From the NCBI GenBank assembly GCA_018057765.1, contig JAGPDB010000010.1:1-62851 (forward strand): DNA of 62,851 nt. The letters run 5' to 3'. Under the pieces are notes generated by a model that did no database searches, was not told the origin of the DNA, and saw only the letters and a program-made list of their open reading frames with translations. Numbering within the stretch: position 1 is the first letter of the stretch; every line of letters starts with the position of its first letter. Below are positions 33,400 through 46,372 of this stretch, piece by piece. Source of the stretch: Acidimicrobiia bacterium. Lineage in GTDB: Bacteria > Actinomycetota > Acidimicrobiia > IMCC26256 > JAGPDB01. Made by a program: the position numbers and the translations under genes.

Positions 33400-34341
33400 A
33401 TGCTCATTATGATTACCGGTGGAGCCGGATTTATTGGTTCAAACCTTACAGACAGACTTTTAGCAGAAGGTCACGATGTTGAAGTAGTAGACGATTTATC
33501 AAGTGGTTCTTTAACAAACCTTTCTGAAGCCAGACGCGTTGGTAAAAGGAAATTTTCTTTCCATCGTTTGGATATTAAAACACGTGCTGTTACTGATTTG
33601 ATAGCATCACGTAAACCAGAGATTGTAATTCATTTAGCAGCACAAACCGACGTTAAAACAAGTATAGATAACCCAATCTTTGACGCAAATACCAACATTA
33701 TCGGAACACTAAATGTTTTAGAAGGTTGTGTAAAAGCCAAAGTTAAAAAAATTATCTTTGCTGCAAGTGCTGCAATATATGGTGATCCACAAACACTTCC
33801 AATACGTGAAGGTCATCCTATGATTCCACTATCTAACTATGGTGTCTCAAAAAAAGTTATTATCGACTATTTAAACTGCTATAGAAATATGTATGATTTA
33901 GAGTTCGTTGCTTTGGTTCTCTCAAATGTTTATGGCCCAAGACAGTCATTCTCAAATGAAGGTGGAGCTATTGCAAAATTCGCATCCTTGATGATTTCGC
34001 GAGAACGTCCAACAATATATGGCGATGGTAGTCAAACTAGAGATTTTATTTTTATTGATGATGTTGTCGATGCATTTGTTAGGAGTATTGATAAGGGTAG
34101 TGGTTTAGCTATGAACATCGGTACGGGTAAACAAACATCAGTGCAGAGTCTTTTTGACACAATTGCAAAAAGCGTAGGTTACAAAGATCCTCCACGATAT
34201 AGTGATCTCTCAAATGGCGAAATTATAGACTCAGTATTGGACTTTAAACGAGCTGAAGTGCATATTGGCTTTACACCTTTTACTTCATTTGATGATGGTA
34301 TTGGCCGAACTGTCCAATGGTATAAATCTCTAGCTAAATAA
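33400..34341 (+). CDS. NAD-dependent sugar epimerase (UDP-glucose 4-epimerase-like)
   Basis: Extended short-chain dehydrogenase of 313 residues. The N-terminal MITGGAGFIGSNLTDRL binds NAD. Catalytic residues are the serine in AASAAIYGD, Tyr147 and Lys151 (NYGVSKK). SNVYGPRQS and IYGDGSQTRDFIFIDDVVDA are typical of GalE- and RmlB-type enzymes. ATG 33400 or 33409 may be the start. Its last 12 bases overlap the convergent CofE-like gene. It ends the sugar-polymer operon that starts at the LCP gene. Confidence 0.88.
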   Translation: MLIMITGGAGFIGSNLTDRLLAEGHDVEVVDDLSSGSLTNLSEARRVGKRKFSFHRLDIKTRAVTDLIASRKPEIVIHLAAQTDVKTSIDNPIFDANTNIIGTLNVLEGCVKAKVKKIIFAASAAIYGDPQTLPIREGHPMIPLSNYGVSKKVIIDYLNCYRNMYDLEFVALVLSNVYGPRQSFSNEGGAIAKFASLMISRERPTIYGDGSQTRDFIFIDDVVDAFVRSIDKGSGLAMNIGTGKQTSVQSLFDTIAKSVGYKDPPRYSDLSNGEIIDSVLDFKRAEVHIGFTPFTSFDDGIGRTVQWYKSLAK

Positions 34342-34965
34342 CTTTTCATTGTTCGGAGTGATTAGATCTGAGGCTTTTCCATTACCTCTATATTTCTTAT
34401 CTATGCCTCTTAATAGAACTCCGTAAGAATCTGCATCTGACATTACAATCGATGCTGCACTTGCAAGTTCATCACAAATAGCAGTTTTGGTATCTAGCCC
34501 TGATATTCCCATAGCAATACTAATTTTACCTTGTCTAAATGGCCTAAAGATATCTCCATTAATAATCACAGGTATGTCATATCCGTTTAAATGTTTTAAA
34601 GCATTCCGTAAAGAATGCGCTGCTTTATCAATATCGCGAGGTAATAGTATTAAATTTTTTTCATCAAATTCCAAAACACCTGAGTTTTCAGATATAAGTC
34701 CATGTATTGTTTCAGTAATTTTTCTGTCTTTAATTATACGCAAATATCTAATAGATTCATTTTCTATTATGCGTGATTTCTCTTGCTGATTTTCATATTC
34801 AGCAATATTGCATTGAGCCATAGATATAGAGATAGATGAAAAAATGAATACATCTTTTTCTGTAAGTGGGAATAGATCTTCAGGGATAGTCAAAGATACA
34901 GTTTGAGCTAAATCAATTCCGGGTTTTAGTGATTGATTAGTAGCTATTGGATATATTGCTAGCAT
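34330..34965 (-). CDS. Degenerate CofE-like protein (F420:gamma-glutamyl ligase fold)
   Basis: Protein of 211 residues, shorter than the ~250 of CofE/FbiB. It follows the CofE pattern from end to end: LAIYPIATNQSLKPGIDLAQ at the start, DVFIFSSISISMAQ, ESIRYLRIIKDRKITETIHG, LLPRDIDKAAHSLRNAL, INGDIFRPFRQG where CofE has ISDTFGRPWRxG, and CDELASAASIVM. The acidic residue of SDTFGR is displaced (NGDIF), and the ~20-residue loop that usually separates GIAG from DELA in CofE (DxxGRxDxxGRELxVT) is missing. Enzymatic activity as F420-0:glutamate ligase is therefore doubtful. It may be a decayed or repurposed relative. It lies next to wall-polymer genes, not cofactor genes. Confidence 0.6.
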   Translation of the reverse strand: MLAIYPIATNQSLKPGIDLAQTVSLTIPEDLFPLTEKDVFIFSSISISMAQCNIAEYENQQEKSRIIENESIRYLRIIKDRKITETIHGLISENSGVLEFDEKNLILLPRDIDKAAHSLRNALKHLNGYDIPVIINGDIFRPFRQGKISIAMGISGLDTKTAICDELASAASIVMSDADSYGVLLRGIDKKYRGNGKASDLITPNNEKLFS

Positions 34966-35334: not shown

Positions 35335-38301
35335 GTGAGAAGCCCCAAGTCTAAAAATAACTTCGTTGAAAAATCTGAAAAATCTGAAGAATCCGACAAA
35401 GATATTAATTTAAAAGAAAATAACTTAAGTAACGTAAAAGAACCAGAGGGTCTAGCTTGGCCAAGCGTCGTTTGTGTCGTAGTAACAAATGACCCGGGTG
35501 AGTGGTTTGATGAATCAATAAAATCAATAATGGATTCAGGCTACCCAGACCTAACCACGTTAATCTTAGATCTGAGTATAAACGATGGATTAAAAGAAAG
35601 AGTATCAAAATTAGCGCCAAAAGCATTTTTAAGAAAATTTGATGAGACTTATAATTTTGCATCAGCTATTAATGATGCTGTTAATTCTATAGAAGGTGCA
35701 ACATATGTATTGATCTGTCATGATGATGTTATTATCAACAAAGGTGCAATATCATCTATGGTACAAGAAGCATTTCGATCTAACGCATCTATGGTTGGTC
35801 CTAAGATACTTGACGGAGAAAATCCTGATTGTCTTTTAGAAGTTGGTGGAATGATCGACCGTTTTGGAGTGCCCTATAGTGGTCTTGAATTTGGAGAAGT
35901 GGACCAAAGTCAACATGATGGTGTTAGAGATGTCTTTTATGTTTCCAGCGCAGCAATGTTGGTTAGGGCAGACCTATTTCGTGCACTAGGTGGATTTGAT
36001 GAATTATGTTTTCCTGGAGCTGAAGATATAGATTTATCTTGGAGAGCGCATTTAGTTGGAGCACGAGTATTAGTTCAACCTGACGCGACAGTACTGCACC
36101 ACCAAATTAGTGAATCGATAAATTCCCAACGTAACTCTACAAAAGCAATAGTGGCACAACATAGAATGCGTGCTGTTCTTAAAAACTCTTCCAAGGTATC
36201 TTTATTTTGGATACTTCCGATATCTTTCGTTCTTCATAGCATCGAAGGGATTTTCTTTTTACTGAGACTTAATCCATATAGATCAGTTGTTTTATTTAAA
36301 GGTTGGGTTTGGAATATAAAACATCTTAGAAATCTAAGGAGATCTAGAAAAGAAGTACAACATACACGAACAGTGTCCGATAGAGTCATATCTGGCCATC
36401 AAATAGCGGGTTCTTCCAGAATTAGAAGGTTTTTTAATTCAATATCAAGACGAAGACAAAATACGCTATATAAAAATGTTGTAGCAAGTTCAAAAGTAGA
36501 TAAAAGCACTCAAACAAATTATGGCACCTTTTACACTGGCGCATTTTTCATCTATCTACTAGCTATTAGAAATTTAATTTTTGGTCAGATTGAATCCATT
36601 GGGTCTTTTGTAAAGTGGGGATCATTTAGTAATCAAATTTCTTCTTTATTACATGGTGGTTTTCCAACTGTTTCTAGTCCAAATTATTCATCATCGCTAC
36701 AAAGAATAGTTGCTCTAATCCTGACACCAATATTTGGTTTTAATGCTGCTTTCGCTCAACGTATATTTGTATTGAGCCTAATTCCAATAGCTGTGATTGG
36801 TTTACATTATTTGCTAAAAAATCTGGCTCTTTCATCAAGATCTATAATTGCTGGTTCAATATCTTATGGCTTAGTTATTTTTGGTATGGGCATCTTTGAA
36901 AATGGAAAACTCGGCGTCTTAGTGACAGCTGCTTCACTTCCATATTTAATAGACGGTATATTAAAAAATCGATCACGTAAATATGGTCTAAGCGCTGCTT
37001 CTATTATTGCATTTAATCCTGCCGCGATAATAATATTGTTAATAACTAGCTTTGCTTACCTATTGGTAGGGGTACGTAGCGATGCCCGAAGAAAAACACT
37101 AAGAACCATTACTTTCGGTTTATTTCTTTCCATTGTAATTAATCTAGGCCTAGTTTATGATTCGATAAATAGAATCGATAGATCAACATTTGGGTTTACT
37201 GAAGTCTTTACTAGTAACAACAACTATTTCTTTGGCACCGGCTTTTCTAAGAACATAATTCTTGCAATGCTTTTTGTAGGCTTAACAGCTATATTGATTT
37301 CGAAAGGAATGAAGTACTCAATACTAAAAGTAGTAGTTTTTTCTACAATATTGTCGTCATCTATAGCAATCGTTGGTATCAATATAAATGAACCAATTTT
37401 TGATAATTATAATGTTGTTCTTTTGTTCTCATTTACTTTTTCTTTATCTGTTGGGTATTGTTTAAATTCATTTTCGTCAGAGTTAACCGAAAAATCATTC
37501 GGTTTATATCATCTAATAAATGTAATAGCACTCTTTATTATCATAGGAACATTATTATTACAATTGCCAACAATAGTAAATGGAAGGTTAAATTTAAGCT
37601 CTTCCAGTTGGTCAAGCCAAATAGAAAATAAATTTCAATCACGTGTAGTCTATCTTGGAAATACTAAAAAAATAGGTTCTAATCCCTCTATGTTGCCTGG
37701 AAACAAAGGCTTTGTAATAGCGAGTAATACTGAGATCAAAACTTCAAATTCAATTATTGGTCCTAGCTCGAAATTAGATGATGACTTTAGAAAAATATAT
37801 TCCGTGATAATAAAAAATGAAACAAATCATGGTGGCTATCTATTTAGTAAAATGGGTATAGGTGTGATAGTTGTGCCAACAGCATTAAGTCCTGATTCTA
37901 AGATCTCTAAAAACGATTCTGAACTTTTGGCTGCATTCGATAGACAAATAGATTTGGTAAGAATTAAAGACAGAGATGGTTTAGTTGTATACAACAATCT
38001 AGCTCTAACTACGCAATTTAAATCTGATCAAATATCTAATCCTGTAAATATAGCGAATGAATTAATTAATCCAAACATAGATAAAATAAATAAAATTAAG
38101 TATTCAAAGCTAGGTCTAATTAATTATTTGATTATTTCACTAAATGGCTTTGTGTTATTACTCGTATTTTTGTGGCCCAGAAGAAAGGAATTGATTTCTA
38201 ATGCATATTCTTCGGTCAAGAAAATGCAGGCAAATATTAGCGAAGATACAATAGAAGAACCTGAAGGAAATGTCAAAAAAAAATTAAAGAATCAGAAATA
38301 A
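35335..38301 (+). CDS. Giant GT2 glycosyltransferase fused to a polytopic membrane domain (3' frameshift likely)
   Basis: Protein of 988 residues starting at GTG 35335. Residues about 1-45 are charged and low complexity. A GT2 domain follows (about 45-300: VVCVVVTNDPGEWFDESIKS, ICHDDVIINKGA, VSSAAMLVRADLFRALGGFD, FPGAEDIDLSWR). The remainder has about a dozen hydrophobic segments (400-800), a soluble outer part and a last helix near 920. It resembles actinobacterial membrane-anchored galactofuranosyl/rhamnosyl-type transferases. It ends at TAA just after a run of nine A (38275-38283). In the -1 frame the reading continues for about 23 more K/E-rich codons, to a TGA that overlaps the next ATG as ATGA. 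The true 3' end is therefore probably 38372. This points to a lost A, a sequencing error or ribosomal slippage. Confidence 0.85.
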   Translation: MRSPKSKNNFVEKSEKSEESDKDINLKENNLSNVKEPEGLAWPSVVCVVVTNDPGEWFDESIKSIMDSGYPDLTTLILDLSINDGLKERVSKLAPKAFLRKFDETYNFASAINDAVNSIEGATYVLICHDDVIINKGAISSMVQEAFRSNASMVGPKILDGENPDCLLEVGGMIDRFGVPYSGLEFGEVDQSQHDGVRDVFYVSSAAMLVRADLFRALGGFDELCFPGAEDIDLSWRAHLVGARVLVQPDATVLHHQISESINSQRNSTKAIVAQHRMRAVLKNSSKVSLFWILPISFVLHSIEGIFFLLRLNPYRSVVLFKGWVWNIKHLRNLRRSRKEVQHTRTVSDRVISGHQIAGSSRIRRFFNSISRRRQNTLYKNVVASSKVDKSTQTNYGTFYTGAFFIYLLAIRNLIFGQIESIGSFVKWGSFSNQISSLLHGGFPTVSSPNYSSSLQRIVALILTPIFGFNAAFAQRIFVLSLIPIAVIGLHYLLKNLALSSRSIIAGSISYGLVIFGMGIFENGKLGVLVTAASLPYLIDGILKNRSRKYGLSAASIIAFNPAAIIILLITSFAYLLVGVRSDARRKTLRTITFGLFLSIVINLGLVYDSINRIDRSTFGFTEVFTSNNNYFFGTGFSKNIILAMLFVGLTAILISKGMKYSILKVVVFSTILSSSIAIVGININEPIFDNYNVVLLFSFTFSLSVGYCLNSFSSELTEKSFGLYHLINVIALFIIIGTLLLQLPTIVNGRLNLSSSSWSSQIENKFQSRVVYLGNTKKIGSNPSMLPGNKGFVIASNTEIKTSNSIIGPSSKLDDDFRKIYSVIIKNETNHGGYLFSKMGIGVIVVPTALSPDSKISKNDSELLAAFDRQIDLVRIKDRDGLVVYNNLALTTQFKSDQISNPVNIANELINPNIDKINKIKYSKLGLINYLIISLNGFVLLLVFLWPRRKELISNAYSSVKKMQANISEDTIEEPEGNVKKKLKNQK

Positions 38302-38368
38302 TAGATCTAACAATTGAAAAAGAACAAATTTTGACTACAGAAGTTAAAGAATCCGAAACGATAAAAAA

Positions 38369-39874
38369 ATGAAGAGAACCAGACATAGAAACAAAGATTT
38401 TGATGGAAGTATTGCAGTGCAGGAAAAAAGTAAAAAGAAAAGAAATTTCCTTATACCTTCATTAACTTCACCTATATTTTTTATTATTATTTGTGCATTG
38501 GTTGTCGCAGGGGCATTTTACGGGACTAAAAATATAAGTCCAAAATCTAAAAAAATTGATTCTATAAATTCTGAGTTTGTTAATTTGAATTCTGTTTCTG
38601 ACTCATGGAGTTGTCCTTATTTAGTATCAAATAGTACAAGTGTTGATAATCAAATAATTTATTATAATCCAAGCGATAAAGAGGCAAATATAACTGTTCA
38701 TCTATATAATTTGGATGGCAGTTTACTCTCTTCAAAAGATTTCAAATTAAAATCAAAATCATCTCTATCGGAGTTGGTTTCAACTTATGGAGAGAATGTT
38801 AATGCTTCTGGTGTTATTGAAAGTTTCGGCTCACCAATAGTCGTATATAGAAATATTGTTTTATCTGATGGTCCTGAGGTGTTGCCTTGTGTAAAAAATC
38901 CTAAGGATATATTGGAATTAGATAACTTAACCACTGCCCAATATACCAATACAACTTTAATTTTAAATAATCCTTTTAGTGCAGATGTAGTAGTGGATGT
39001 AAATGCTCGACTGGTGGATAATACTCAAAGTCCATTCAAAGTACTATTAGACGATGCAAAGGCTATAGTTATTCCTGGTCATGGACGCGTTGATATTGAT
39101 GTACAAAAAACATTTGGCCGATATCCAATGATAAATTTAACAGTGCAGACAAGGAGTGGTTTTATCTCTGGTGAAGCAATAGTTAATAAGCAAATTGCTA
39201 ATACTTCGAATGGTCAAACTATAGTCACTTCATCATTATCTAACTATACGAATGACACGATCTACATATTTGGTAATTCACCTTTAACAATATATGCACA
39301 AAGTAATTTATCGAAATCAGCTGCCTTAGATATTAAAGCTTATGGTACTGACAATAGGACAATAGCAACTCAAGAACAATCTATAAATGTTGGATCAACA
39401 ATATCAATAGCTGATCCTGGAGTGGAGTTTGGCTTTCATGTTGTCGAAATTATTTCAAACGCAGGAAAAATAATTACTAAAAATGGTGCATCGAATGATG
39501 AAGTATTAGCGCAAAATAGATCGTCATTTGTTTCTTATGTTGGTAGTTTTACAAATAATGAGACACTTAGCGCAAGTACAGTGACATCGTTAACTTCTAA
39601 ATCTATTGTATTAGTTGCTAGAGACAGCGATACTCTTGGATTATTTAATCCATCAACAAAAACAACAAAAGTAAATGTGTCATTTATCGATACAAATATT
39701 AAACAATTATCTTTTGAAATAGGACCAAATAGTTTTTTTCGATATGTCCTCAATGAAGTTGACCTAAAGCCCGGTGTTGTCGTCTTAAGCATAGATTCAA
39801 CACAAGATTTAGTTGCATCAAGTTCGAGAATAGGACTTTCTGGCATAACTAACGGAGTGTATATTAAAAAATGA
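38369..39874 (+). CDS. DUF5719-like single-pass exported protein
   Basis: Protein of 501 residues. A basic N-terminus and one membrane helix (about 33-50) precede an extracellular region of repeated beta strands such as IIYYNPSDKEANITVHLYN and LILNNPFSADVVVDVNARL, which look like immunoglobulin-type domains. In actinobacteria the DUF5719 family sits just after a large glycosyltransferase, as here, which is my main reason for the name. The start (ATG 38369) overlaps the probable true stop of the upstream gene, and its stop (TGA at 39872-39874) overlaps the thioredoxin ATG, so the three genes are translationally coupled. Confidence 0.65.
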   Translation: MKRTRHRNKDFDGSIAVQEKSKKKRNFLIPSLTSPIFFIIICALVVAGAFYGTKNISPKSKKIDSINSEFVNLNSVSDSWSCPYLVSNSTSVDNQIIYYNPSDKEANITVHLYNLDGSLLSSKDFKLKSKSSLSELVSTYGENVNASGVIESFGSPIVVYRNIVLSDGPEVLPCVKNPKDILELDNLTTAQYTNTTLILNNPFSADVVVDVNARLVDNTQSPFKVLLDDAKAIVIPGHGRVDIDVQKTFGRYPMINLTVQTRSGFISGEAIVNKQIANTSNGQTIVTSSLSNYTNDTIYIFGNSPLTIYAQSNLSKSAALDIKAYGTDNRTIATQEQSINVGSTISIADPGVEFGFHVVEIISNAGKIITKNGASNDEVLAQNRSSFVSYVGSFTNNETLSASTVTSLTSKSIVLVARDSDTLGLFNPSTKTTKVNVSFIDTNIKQLSFEIGPNSFFRYVLNEVDLKPGVVVLSIDSTQDLVASSSRIGLSGITNGVYIKK

Positions 39875-40326
39875 TTTGGATAGTTTATATTGTAATAGTT
39901 TTATTGTTAATCGCGGTATTTCTGTTTGCTTCTAGGAGAAAAGAAACTAATGTTCAGGTAACTAATTATGAGTTGCCTACTTATATTGATATAACGGATA
40001 TTAAGTCCAATAGCGAAGACTTTTTCGTCATAATTTTTTCTTCAGAGAACTGTGATGGCTGTAAGATAGTTTTAGAAAAAGCAAAAGTATTAGAAAGTAA
40101 TTCAGTTGCAGTAGAAGAAATTTCATATCAAACAACTCAAGGCAAAAAACTCCATCTAAAATATCAAATAGAAGCTGTACCCAGTTTACTTATAGTTGAT
40201 AAACATGGAAATGTTATAAAAACATATATGGGTAACGTAACAGCTACAGATTTATGGGCAGCAGTCGCACAAGCTCGTGGTTCAGAATTAGGTTGTACTG
40301 ATTCTGGAAGTTGTACTTCGCATTAA
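39871..40326 (+). CDS. Membrane-tethered thioredoxin-like protein
   Basis: Protein of 151 residues. One N-terminal membrane helix (about 3-20) and a short basic stretch are followed by a thioredoxin fold with the active site Cys61-Asp-Gly-Cys64 (SSENCDGCK) and the cis-proline segment EAVPSLLIVD. A second cysteine pair lies at the end (GCTDSGSC). If the N-terminus is inside, the domain lies outside and could reduce or form disulfides in exported proteins, such as the cysteine-rich surface repeats. CDGC is unlike the CGPC of cytosolic thioredoxins. ATGA coupling links it to the DUF5719-like gene. It converges on ftsH, with 10 bases between stops. Confidence 0.8.
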   Translation: MIWIVYIVIVLLLIAVFLFASRRKETNVQVTNYELPTYIDITDIKSNSEDFFVIIFSSENCDGCKIVLEKAKVLESNSVAVEEISYQTTQGKKLHLKYQIEAVPSLLIVDKHGNVIKTYMGNVTATDLWAAVAQARGSELGCTDSGSCTSH

Positions 40327-43618: not shown

Positions 43619-46372
43619 GTGGCCAAAACCAAACAAGATATCAAACAAAATTACAAACAAGATTTCAAAAATAGTTTTAATAAAATATTTAGTCGACCTA
43701 TTCTTTTTTATAAAAGAAAAGCTAATTTATTAGATACTAACCCGATTGCTTTTGCGCTTCAATCGATAACAGCTTTTGGTGTATTTGGATGCGTTGTCAC
43801 AGTATTAGTAGCTGTACATCCAAATTTAATTTTACATGACAGTACGCCCACCGGTGGAGATATGGGTGCCCATGTGTGGTGGCCTGCTTATATGCGCGAC
43901 ATATTACTTCCAGCTGGAAGAATCTTCGGTTGGTCTATGGACTATTACGCAGGATTCCCGGTTGGGCAATATTATTTTCCTGTTCCTGCTGTGATGATTG
44001 CAATCCTGGATATTATCTTTCCATATAATGTTGCATTTAAAATTGTTGCTGTATCTGGTTCTGTTATTTTGCCTTTAGCTGCATATGTCTTGGGGCGTGC
44101 CATAAAAGCTTACCGTCCAATACCTATGTTGATGGCTTTTGCTGCGATGATTTTTTTGTTTTTTCAAGGCGATCCAAGGAGTTCTAGTCCATCGGTTAAT
44201 TCATTGTTAGACATCAAAGGTGCGGTTGGTAATCAAAGAATCATGGGTGGTCCATTAGTCTCAACTATGGCTGGCGAATTCTCCTTTTCGATATCGCTTT
44301 GTTTTGCATTGTTTTTCTTAGCAGCATTTTATACAATGATAAGAGATGGAAAATACCGAGTTACTACTGCGGTACTTTTAGCTCTTACTATAATGAGCCA
44401 TTTAGTTGTGGCGATATTTGTTGGTCTGGCAGCAATAGTATTTTGGGGATCATATTATATTTCTACAAAGGGTTTCAAAAAGGTATTTGGATATATGCTC
44501 TTGTTATGGATAGGTATTATTACCATGTCTATTGGAGCAATAGGTCGCTACTTTTTTGATCATAAGACTGACTGGCTTGTGTATCTAGTTTTTCTATCAT
44601 CATTTATTTTGCTTGTAGTTTTTATTTATGGTTACAAAAGACGAAAAGGTGCTAAAGAAATAATCAAGGATGGGTATCCTCTTGTTTTAGGATTATTACT
44701 TTCTAGTATTTGGTTTTTACCTTTATTGGCTAGGTTTTCTTATACTTCAAATATGAGATATACGAAAGTTACTAACGATCCAGCGACAAAAGTTAACGAA
44801 CTTTTTGAACTTTATATAACTCCGCGTTATATGTTTATAGCAGTATTTATACCAGTTGCCATTGGCTTTATCTTAAGTGCAACATTATTAAGAAAGCATA
44901 TAATCCCATTAATTTTGACCTCACTCATGATGGCAACGGTTTTTGCTCTATGGCCAGAAGGTCACGCCTGGAACTTAAGATTCTTACCATTTTGGTATTT
45001 ATGTATTTATTTCGTTGCAGCTGTAGGTATCGGAGAATTAATTAGGGTACCTGCAGAACTATTATCTTATTTTGGGCGTAAAACTAGAACTAAAATAATG
45101 TTCAAATTGTCAGGAATTTATCAGATCGTAATTTTAATCTTCATAATAGCCATGACACTTGTCTACATTGTAGGATTTGGTTCAAAAAGTATTGGTCCCG
45201 ATGGAGTAGATCACCGAGCAATTCAAGATAAGCGCGGTGCAGGTGTTGATTGGTCAAAATATAATTTTAACGGATACGAAAATCTTCCTGACTATAAAGA
45301 ATTCAAAGCTTTAATGGACACCATGGCTAAATTAGAACCAGGTCGCGCACTTTGGGAAACAACACAGAGCGGTTATGGGACAACTCTGGCTTTAATGTTG
45401 TTACCGTATTATACAAACCACCGTATTTCTTCAATGGAAGGTTTATACTTTGAGGCCAGTGGTACTACTGCATATCATTTTCTAAATGTTGCTGAAGTTT
45501 CAAAGCAATCTTCTAATCCAATGGCCTGGCCCAAATGCGAAAAGAATAAAGATCTTAGCCTTGTAGACCCTAATTGTATCGATCAGTATTATGGCAATAT
45601 TGCTGATTTTGATCGTGGTATTGATCATATGAAGCTTATGGGCGTGAGATACTATATGGCTTATAGCGAAGATACTAAAGAGTTAGCTAAAACAAACAAA
45701 AATTTGAAACTGGTTGCAGAAGTCCCAGATATGCCAGATGCCATAGACCAACAAACACTCGATTATTATAAGCAAAATAAATTACCATTACCTGATCCTA
45801 TTTATTCTGTACCTAATGGTTGGAAAATTTATGAGGTAGTTGGTTCTTCGGTTGTTGAACCATTAGCTATTGATCCAATAATTGTTTCTGATAAATCTGA
45901 TAAGTCCGACTGGGTTCAAAGTGGTAATAGGTGGTTATATGATTGGTGGAATTCCTATACCAAATACCCTGTATTCTTAGATCATGGACCATCAAACTTT
46001 AAAAAAATGACAGCTGATGATGCTTTAAAGGATGTATTATCTGCAAAAGAGCAAAAAACAGTTAGTAAAGTAAAAGTATCAAAAGTTCAATTGAAAAATG
46101 ATTCAATAAGTTTTGATGTTGATCAAATTGGTAAACCAGTTCTAGTGAAAGTATCTTATTACCCAACATTTCAGGTTAGTGGTGCAAAAGAAATATATCG
46201 TGCAAGTCCAAACTTTATGGTTGTGGTTCCAACCTCTAAACATGTAAAAATTCAAATAGAGCGAGATGCTATTGAATGGATATCAATTTTCTTATTCTTC
46301 CTAGCAGTATTTTTACTAGTTTTGATTAAAACAAAGAAACCTTTAATTTTTATAAAAAAAGCATTCAAATAA
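43619..46372 (+). CDS. Large polytopic membrane protein, GT-C glycosyltransferase-like
   Basis: Protein of 917 residues with GTG start. About a dozen hydrophobic segments (about 40-500) are followed by an outer-face domain (500-890) and one last helix (about 888-908). After the first helix, the loop HDSTPTGGDMGAHVWWPAYM carries an acidic residue where GT-C enzymes have their catalytic DD/DxD motif. Many Trp and Tyr residues line the loops (FGWSMDYYAGFPVGQYYFPV), as expected for a carbohydrate pocket. The gene precedes phosphomannomutase, so transfer of a polyprenyl-linked sugar is plausible. No family name can be given with confidence. Actinobacterial '6-pyruvoyl-tetrahydropterin synthase-related' membrane proteins have a similar architecture. 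Confidence 0.6.
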   Translation: MAKTKQDIKQNYKQDFKNSFNKIFSRPILFYKRKANLLDTNPIAFALQSITAFGVFGCVVTVLVAVHPNLILHDSTPTGGDMGAHVWWPAYMRDILLPAGRIFGWSMDYYAGFPVGQYYFPVPAVMIAILDIIFPYNVAFKIVAVSGSVILPLAAYVLGRAIKAYRPIPMLMAFAAMIFLFFQGDPRSSSPSVNSLLDIKGAVGNQRIMGGPLVSTMAGEFSFSISLCFALFFLAAFYTMIRDGKYRVTTAVLLALTIMSHLVVAIFVGLAAIVFWGSYYISTKGFKKVFGYMLLLWIGIITMSIGAIGRYFFDHKTDWLVYLVFLSSFILLVVFIYGYKRRKGAKEIIKDGYPLVLGLLLSSIWFLPLLARFSYTSNMRYTKVTNDPATKVNELFELYITPRYMFIAVFIPVAIGFILSATLLRKHIIPLILTSLMMATVFALWPEGHAWNLRFLPFWYLCIYFVAAVGIGELIRVPAELLSYFGRKTRTKIMFKLSGIYQIVILIFIIAMTLVYIVGFGSKSIGPDGVDHRAIQDKRGAGVDWSKYNFNGYENLPDYKEFKALMDTMAKLEPGRALWETTQSGYGTTLALMLLPYYTNHRISSMEGLYFEASGTTAYHFLNVAEVSKQSSNPMAWPKCEKNKDLSLVDPNCIDQYYGNIADFDRGIDHMKLMGVRYYMAYSEDTKELAKTNKNLKLVAEVPDMPDAIDQQTLDYYKQNKLPLPDPIYSVPNGWKIYEVVGSSVVEPLAIDPIIVSDKSDKSDWVQSGNRWLYDWWNSYTKYPVFLDHGPSNFKKMTADDALKDVLSAKEQKTVSKVKVSKVQLKNDSISFDVDQIGKPVLVKVSYYPTFQVSGAKEIYRASPNFMVVVPTSKHVKIQIERDAIEWISIFLFFLAVFLLVLIKTKKPLIFIKKAFK

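Follow-up and report, generated by a model that had tools for sequence, protein, structure and literature searches.

The window, by which we mean the whole 62,851-nucleotide stretch of Acidimicrobiia DNA that was analysed, belongs to a genome (G000) assembled as 1.76 Mb in 51 contigs, at approximately 35% GC, and it carries on its forward strand three genes that follow one another closely (Table 1). The upstream gene, a single open reading frame from the GTG at 35335 to the TAA at 38299-38301, codes for a protein with many membrane-like segments and a GT2 glycosyltransferase domain at residues 46-259 (PF00535/PF13641, above the Pfam cut-off); a scan of NCBIfam returned no equivalog at cut-off for this protein. 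The TAA sits five codons 3′ of an uninterrupted run of nine A residues, A9, at 38275-38283. When read from 38283 in the -1 frame, the sequence goes on as IKESEIIDLTIEKEQILTTEVKESETIKK*, that is, 29 codons (38283-38369), some 23 of them past the TAA, and the TGA that ends this frame overlaps the start of a DUF5719 protein gene as ATGA. A second ATGA, at 39871-39874, links that gene to a thioredoxin-like gene. All of these positions (TAA, A9, TGA and both ATGA) had been given in the original prediction, and proved exact when the sequence was read again. Scans for promoters, terminators and Rfam families around the GT2/DUF5719 junction found nothing.

Table 1. Features of the GT2/DUF5719 region, in window coordinates
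Feature	Position	Strand	Remarks
GT2-family membrane glycosyltransferase gene, as assembled	35335..38301	+	988 aa, GTG start, TAA stop; open reading frame
AAGGA, Shine-Dalgarno-like	38264..38268	+	8 nt 5′ of the in-phase A_AAA_AAA at 38277-38283; sequence only
A9 tract, site of the frame break	38275..38283	+	AAA AAA AAA in frame 0
-1 frame extension, 29 codons and TGA	38283..38372	+	coding-like codon usage, conserved junction position
Premature TAA, frame 0	38299..38301	+	67 nt upstream of the next start codon
ATGA	38369..38372	+	-1 frame stop TGA (38370-38372) overlapping the DUF5719 start codon, ATG
DUF5719 protein gene	38369..39874	+	501 aa; PF18986 at 28.8 bits, above cut-off
Thioredoxin-like gene	39871..40326	+	PF00085; open reading frame

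The neighbourhood has some features of its own. Beside the GT2 gene lies, on the minus strand, a short and diverged CofE-like gene (34330-34965, 211 aa), in the place of which G001, a genome of the same genus, has a CofD gene (L003:31-984, minus strand); G000 has one copy of CofD elsewhere (C1:150426-151172) and G001 has two. Further along the window, 43619-46372 codes for a membrane protein of 917 aa without Pfam match.

The family of the window's genome consists of three genomes. With a single protein as query the search of genome contigs found no relative; with a two-sequence alignment it brought in 14, among them G001 (an uncultured actinobacterium MAG), the named ones being Acidimicrobiales and unclassified Actinobacteria MAGs. 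The G001 orthologue of the GT2 protein is 46% identical to that of the window and runs in one uninterrupted frame to the ATGA. G002, of the same genus and 94% complete, has no clear GT2 orthologue (best E 2e-5), either because a contig is missing or through a real loss. Across the order, the TGA of the GT2 gene overlaps the next start by 4 nt, as ATGA or GTGA, in 29 of the 32 junctions that could be read, and a scan of 32 downstream proteins, that of the window among them, matched 31 to DUF5719. The three exceptions are a start placed 5 nt past a TAG (L067), a longer overlap (L069) and a gene broken before its end (L024). The GT2 frame is also interrupted in the assemblies of three relatives (L021, L024 and L058, in G010, G027 and G019, respectively), possibly by indel errors or as pseudogenes.

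The pair of genes in the window thus shares its gene order and the position of its junction with those 29 relatives, as a GT2-DUF5719 pair of the kind found in Acidimicrobiales-type Actinobacteria, and differs from them in that only the -1 frame arrives at this conserved place. The 4-nt overlap of stop and start by which translational coupling is predicted is likewise found here through the -1 frame only. Because the junctions of the relatives do so, the GT2 gene should continue to the ATGA, and we may take the -1 frame as the ancestral 3′ end of the gene, so that the assembly, judged by this comparison of sequences, is one A short. This bears out the claim, already made in the original prediction, that A9 shifts the frame of the glycosyltransferase ahead of an ATGA junction; no relative was found in which the gene ends at this TAA and an unrelated spacer follows. 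The A run itself is absent in G001 and is not conserved among relatives.

It is worth emphasizing that the openness of the -1 frame is, by itself, weak evidence, as a first-order model of the spacer puts the chance of its staying open at P ~0.12. The prediction had held that a neutral spacer would hardly give such a pattern. The codon log-odds of the extension reach 0.51 per codon, for a mean of 0.55 in 380 real gene windows of 29 codons; none of 59 stop-free off-frame windows and 5% of 308 intergenic windows score as high, and none of the remaining five frames over the extension exceeds 0.03. The frame is indeed open for some 23 codons past the TAA, as had been noticed, but its K/E-rich composition, which had been taken to continue that of the existing tail, could not be turned into evidence of homology: local alignment with the tail of G001 was not significant (a fraction of 0.76 of shuffled sequences aligned at least as well), and homology of the two tails was dropped. 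As a consequence, the extension is held as coding by its codon usage and the position of its junction only. This dissimilarity is as expected of a variable cytoplasmic tail located past the last membrane segment and a WPRR motif, in a topology that was judged by eye. One might still suppose that nothing is broken, that the gene truly ends at the TAA and that a spacer is open in the -1 frame by chance, as the P value just cited and the lack of an alignable tail would permit; with coding-like codon usage and, decisively, a 4-nt overlap conserved in relatives, the extension is more than chance openness, and this supposition is barely credible.

The assembly of G000 holds 15 runs of A9/T9 and none longer, as compared with 182 A8 runs. 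Twelve of the 15 are genic A9 runs of the sense strand, and three are intergenic. Ten of the 12 genic runs are in intact frames; the other two are frame-broken, both short of exactly one A. Besides that of the window, the break affects a gene for a DUF459/SGNH hydrolase, with A9 at G000:C21:24857-24865 (L048:1501-1509, minus strand), where an N-terminal part of 99 codons, with a membrane segment, stops just past the run while the DUF459/SGNH hydrolase domain goes on in the -1 frame. The hydrolase occupies a single frame in G001 (L117; 387 residues) and G002 (L118; 390 residues). On the one G001 protein, the halves of the split gene fall one after the other, at residues 46-106 and 115-387. Neither broken gene shows other decay. 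In the 385 kb of G000 that were surveyed, none of the 88 A8 and 130 A7 runs lying in the sense strand of long open frames showed a true break (Fisher p = 0.013 for A9 against A8, 0.0025 against A7 plus A8); the test depends on a long frame or a 4-nt overlap at the junction, and some cases escape it. Four break-like flags at runs of at least seven were inspected, and the two at A9 are the real breaks just described. Of the two at A7, one, in L162, looks like noise of the non-coding strand; the other, at 46354, belongs to the ordinary end of gene 43619-46372, ahead of the next gene. A6 and T6 runs gave few break-like flags, which were counted only. Synonymous shuffling of the window's genes leads one to expect 2.0 A9 per 56 kb, where the window has one, a number too small to be informative; scaled, roughly, to the genome, the expectation is several times the 12 genic runs observed. 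The same shuffling finds A7 and A8 at expected numbers in these genes and sense-strand T runs of at least seven rare (two T7 for approximately 11.5 expected, no T8 for four). A DNA pattern, run against viral contigs in search of another copy of the site, gave two 18-mer matches with no wider similarity.

Cases of this kind are known, in which the frame of a gene is broken at a poly-A run prone to slippage. In many genomes selection against A/T runs starts at nine nucleotides, and dnaX of Thermus thermophilus slips on A9 (Baranov 2005, PMC1088944). As in the window, the dnaX run is a sense-strand A9 late in the gene, from which heterogeneous mRNA is expected (PMC1088944); there, however, the full product comes from the templated A9, while here the A9 gives the short one, from a run that is not conserved. 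In Blochmannia vafer, eight genes have poly-A breaks, and a share of 30% full-length transcripts has been reported for frameshifted genes (PMC3017870). Blochmannia and Buchnera resemble G000 in that a single indel sits in a poly-A run of at least nine of otherwise intact genes, with transcriptional rescue in those organisms, and in that several such genes are met in one AT-rich genome (PMC3017870). The A11 of tssM1 in Citrobacter rodentium and the A9 of tssM3 in Yersinia pseudotuberculosis also shift frames, by a transcriptional process, again at sense poly-A runs (of 11 and 9) behind which coding goes on in the other frame, the run of tssM1 being placed, as that of the window, shortly before a stop (PMC4256274). 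Both comparisons have their limits: the coding regions of Blochmannia have 114-153 poly-A tracts of at least nine, against 12 genic A9 in G000 at 35% GC, and for tssM two length variants have been demonstrated experimentally, functional ones in the case of tssM1, as against a short, poorly conserved tail here.

The explanation that we favour, tentatively and holding it to be close to evenly balanced, is a derived loss of one A at a slippage-prone tract, with leaky transcriptional rescue. The loss of a single base at A9 accounts for both broken genes. In G000, nine would be the length at which A runs become slippage-prone; an A10 would have become A9 in the assembled population, and RNA polymerase would add one A in part of the transcripts. 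Insertions in A/T runs of transcripts are mostly of a single base (PMC5574713), which is the sense needed to restore both genes. Two of the features by which poly-A rescue is recognized are found at both sites, an uninterrupted sense A run of at least nine at the break (38275-38283 in the window) and coding that continues in the other frame with no other decay. Slippage at the A9 of the window is extrapolated from other bacteria, and mixed transcripts are likely if the DNA does contain A9. Ribosomes translating the A9 mRNA would end 67 nt upstream of the DUF5719 start, with tight coupling lost, and those translating an mRNA with one A more would arrive at the ATGA and start again there, as in relatives; an extra A supplied by RNA polymerase would probably make the break leaky. 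The loss would be tolerated because of this insertion and because the tail that is lost is cytoplasmic and poorly conserved. As only this tail is removed, the GT2 enzyme would survive truncation, and the cost may be, at most, that of the tail and of the coupling to DUF5719. The number of A residues could even set how much DUF5719 and thioredoxin-like protein is made, RNA polymerase inserting an A in a fixed share of transcripts and these alone bringing ribosomes to the ATGA so that slippage would meter expression, a role that we regard as highly improbable.

The main rival to this real loss of one A is an undercall, in which each of the two runs would truly be A10, one A having dropped out of the consensus in sequencing or assembly. 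We see it as a serious possibility, if not one to be preferred. Both breaks fall on runs of the maximum length found in the assembly, each short of one A in a gene otherwise free of decay; that 1.76 Mb should contain nothing longer than nine fits a collapse of A10, and the assembly is a 51-contig draft. With two broken genes only, a sharp failure of base calling at A10 would produce the same picture. Yet sharp it must be: as the surveyed A7 and A8 sense runs showed no break and ten of the 12 genic A9 runs are intact, errors would need to begin abruptly at ten. Runs of ten or more would be scarce in coding sequence anyway, in line with the steep fall already seen between A8 and A9, and among singleton frameshifts close to a 3′ end indel mutations outnumber errors (Antonov 2013, PMC3711429).

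A deletion might also be real and have no meaningful transcriptional rescue, either as a neutral truncation or as phase variation at the DNA level, where replication slippage would flip the length of the tract and toggle both tail and coupling; we judge this reading, in its two forms together, rather unlikely. Homopolymers of this length are hypermutable and surface-sugar enzymes are classic phase-variable genes. Poly-A tracts do occur in genes (Orsi 2010, PMC2831843). Here, however, the switch would affect the C-terminal tail alone and leave the enzyme as it is, the run is absent in G001, and A runs of at least nine may be avoided in G000 rather than enriched. As for neutrality, the hydrolase would not survive its break, so that rescue, loss of function or sequence error must hold there, which counts against a purely neutral interpretation and raises the weight of error. 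A programmed -1 ribosomal frameshift on A_AAA_AAA, which would yield two forms of the GT2 protein and set the expression of DUF5719, was among the options of the original prediction and is suggested by the in-phase slippery heptamer with AAGGA 8 nt upstream. It has become very improbable: no stable structure lies downstream to stimulate it (fold z = 0.27), the A run is not conserved, G001 and other relatives get to the junction in one frame without any shift, and the break in the hydrolase gene has no comparable upstream element.

To what was known of genes interrupted at poly-A runs, this locus adds a comparison with relatives that supports the ancestral frame, together with a second gene broken alike in the same genome. 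Whatever the cause, neither the GT2 stop as annotated nor the split of the hydrolase gene should be taken at face value. If they are errors, the two sites mark where the assembly fails. If both breaks are real, gene callers truncate or split such genes, and a poorly known Actinobacterium of approximately 35% GC would tolerate frameshifts at A9, as insect endosymbionts do.
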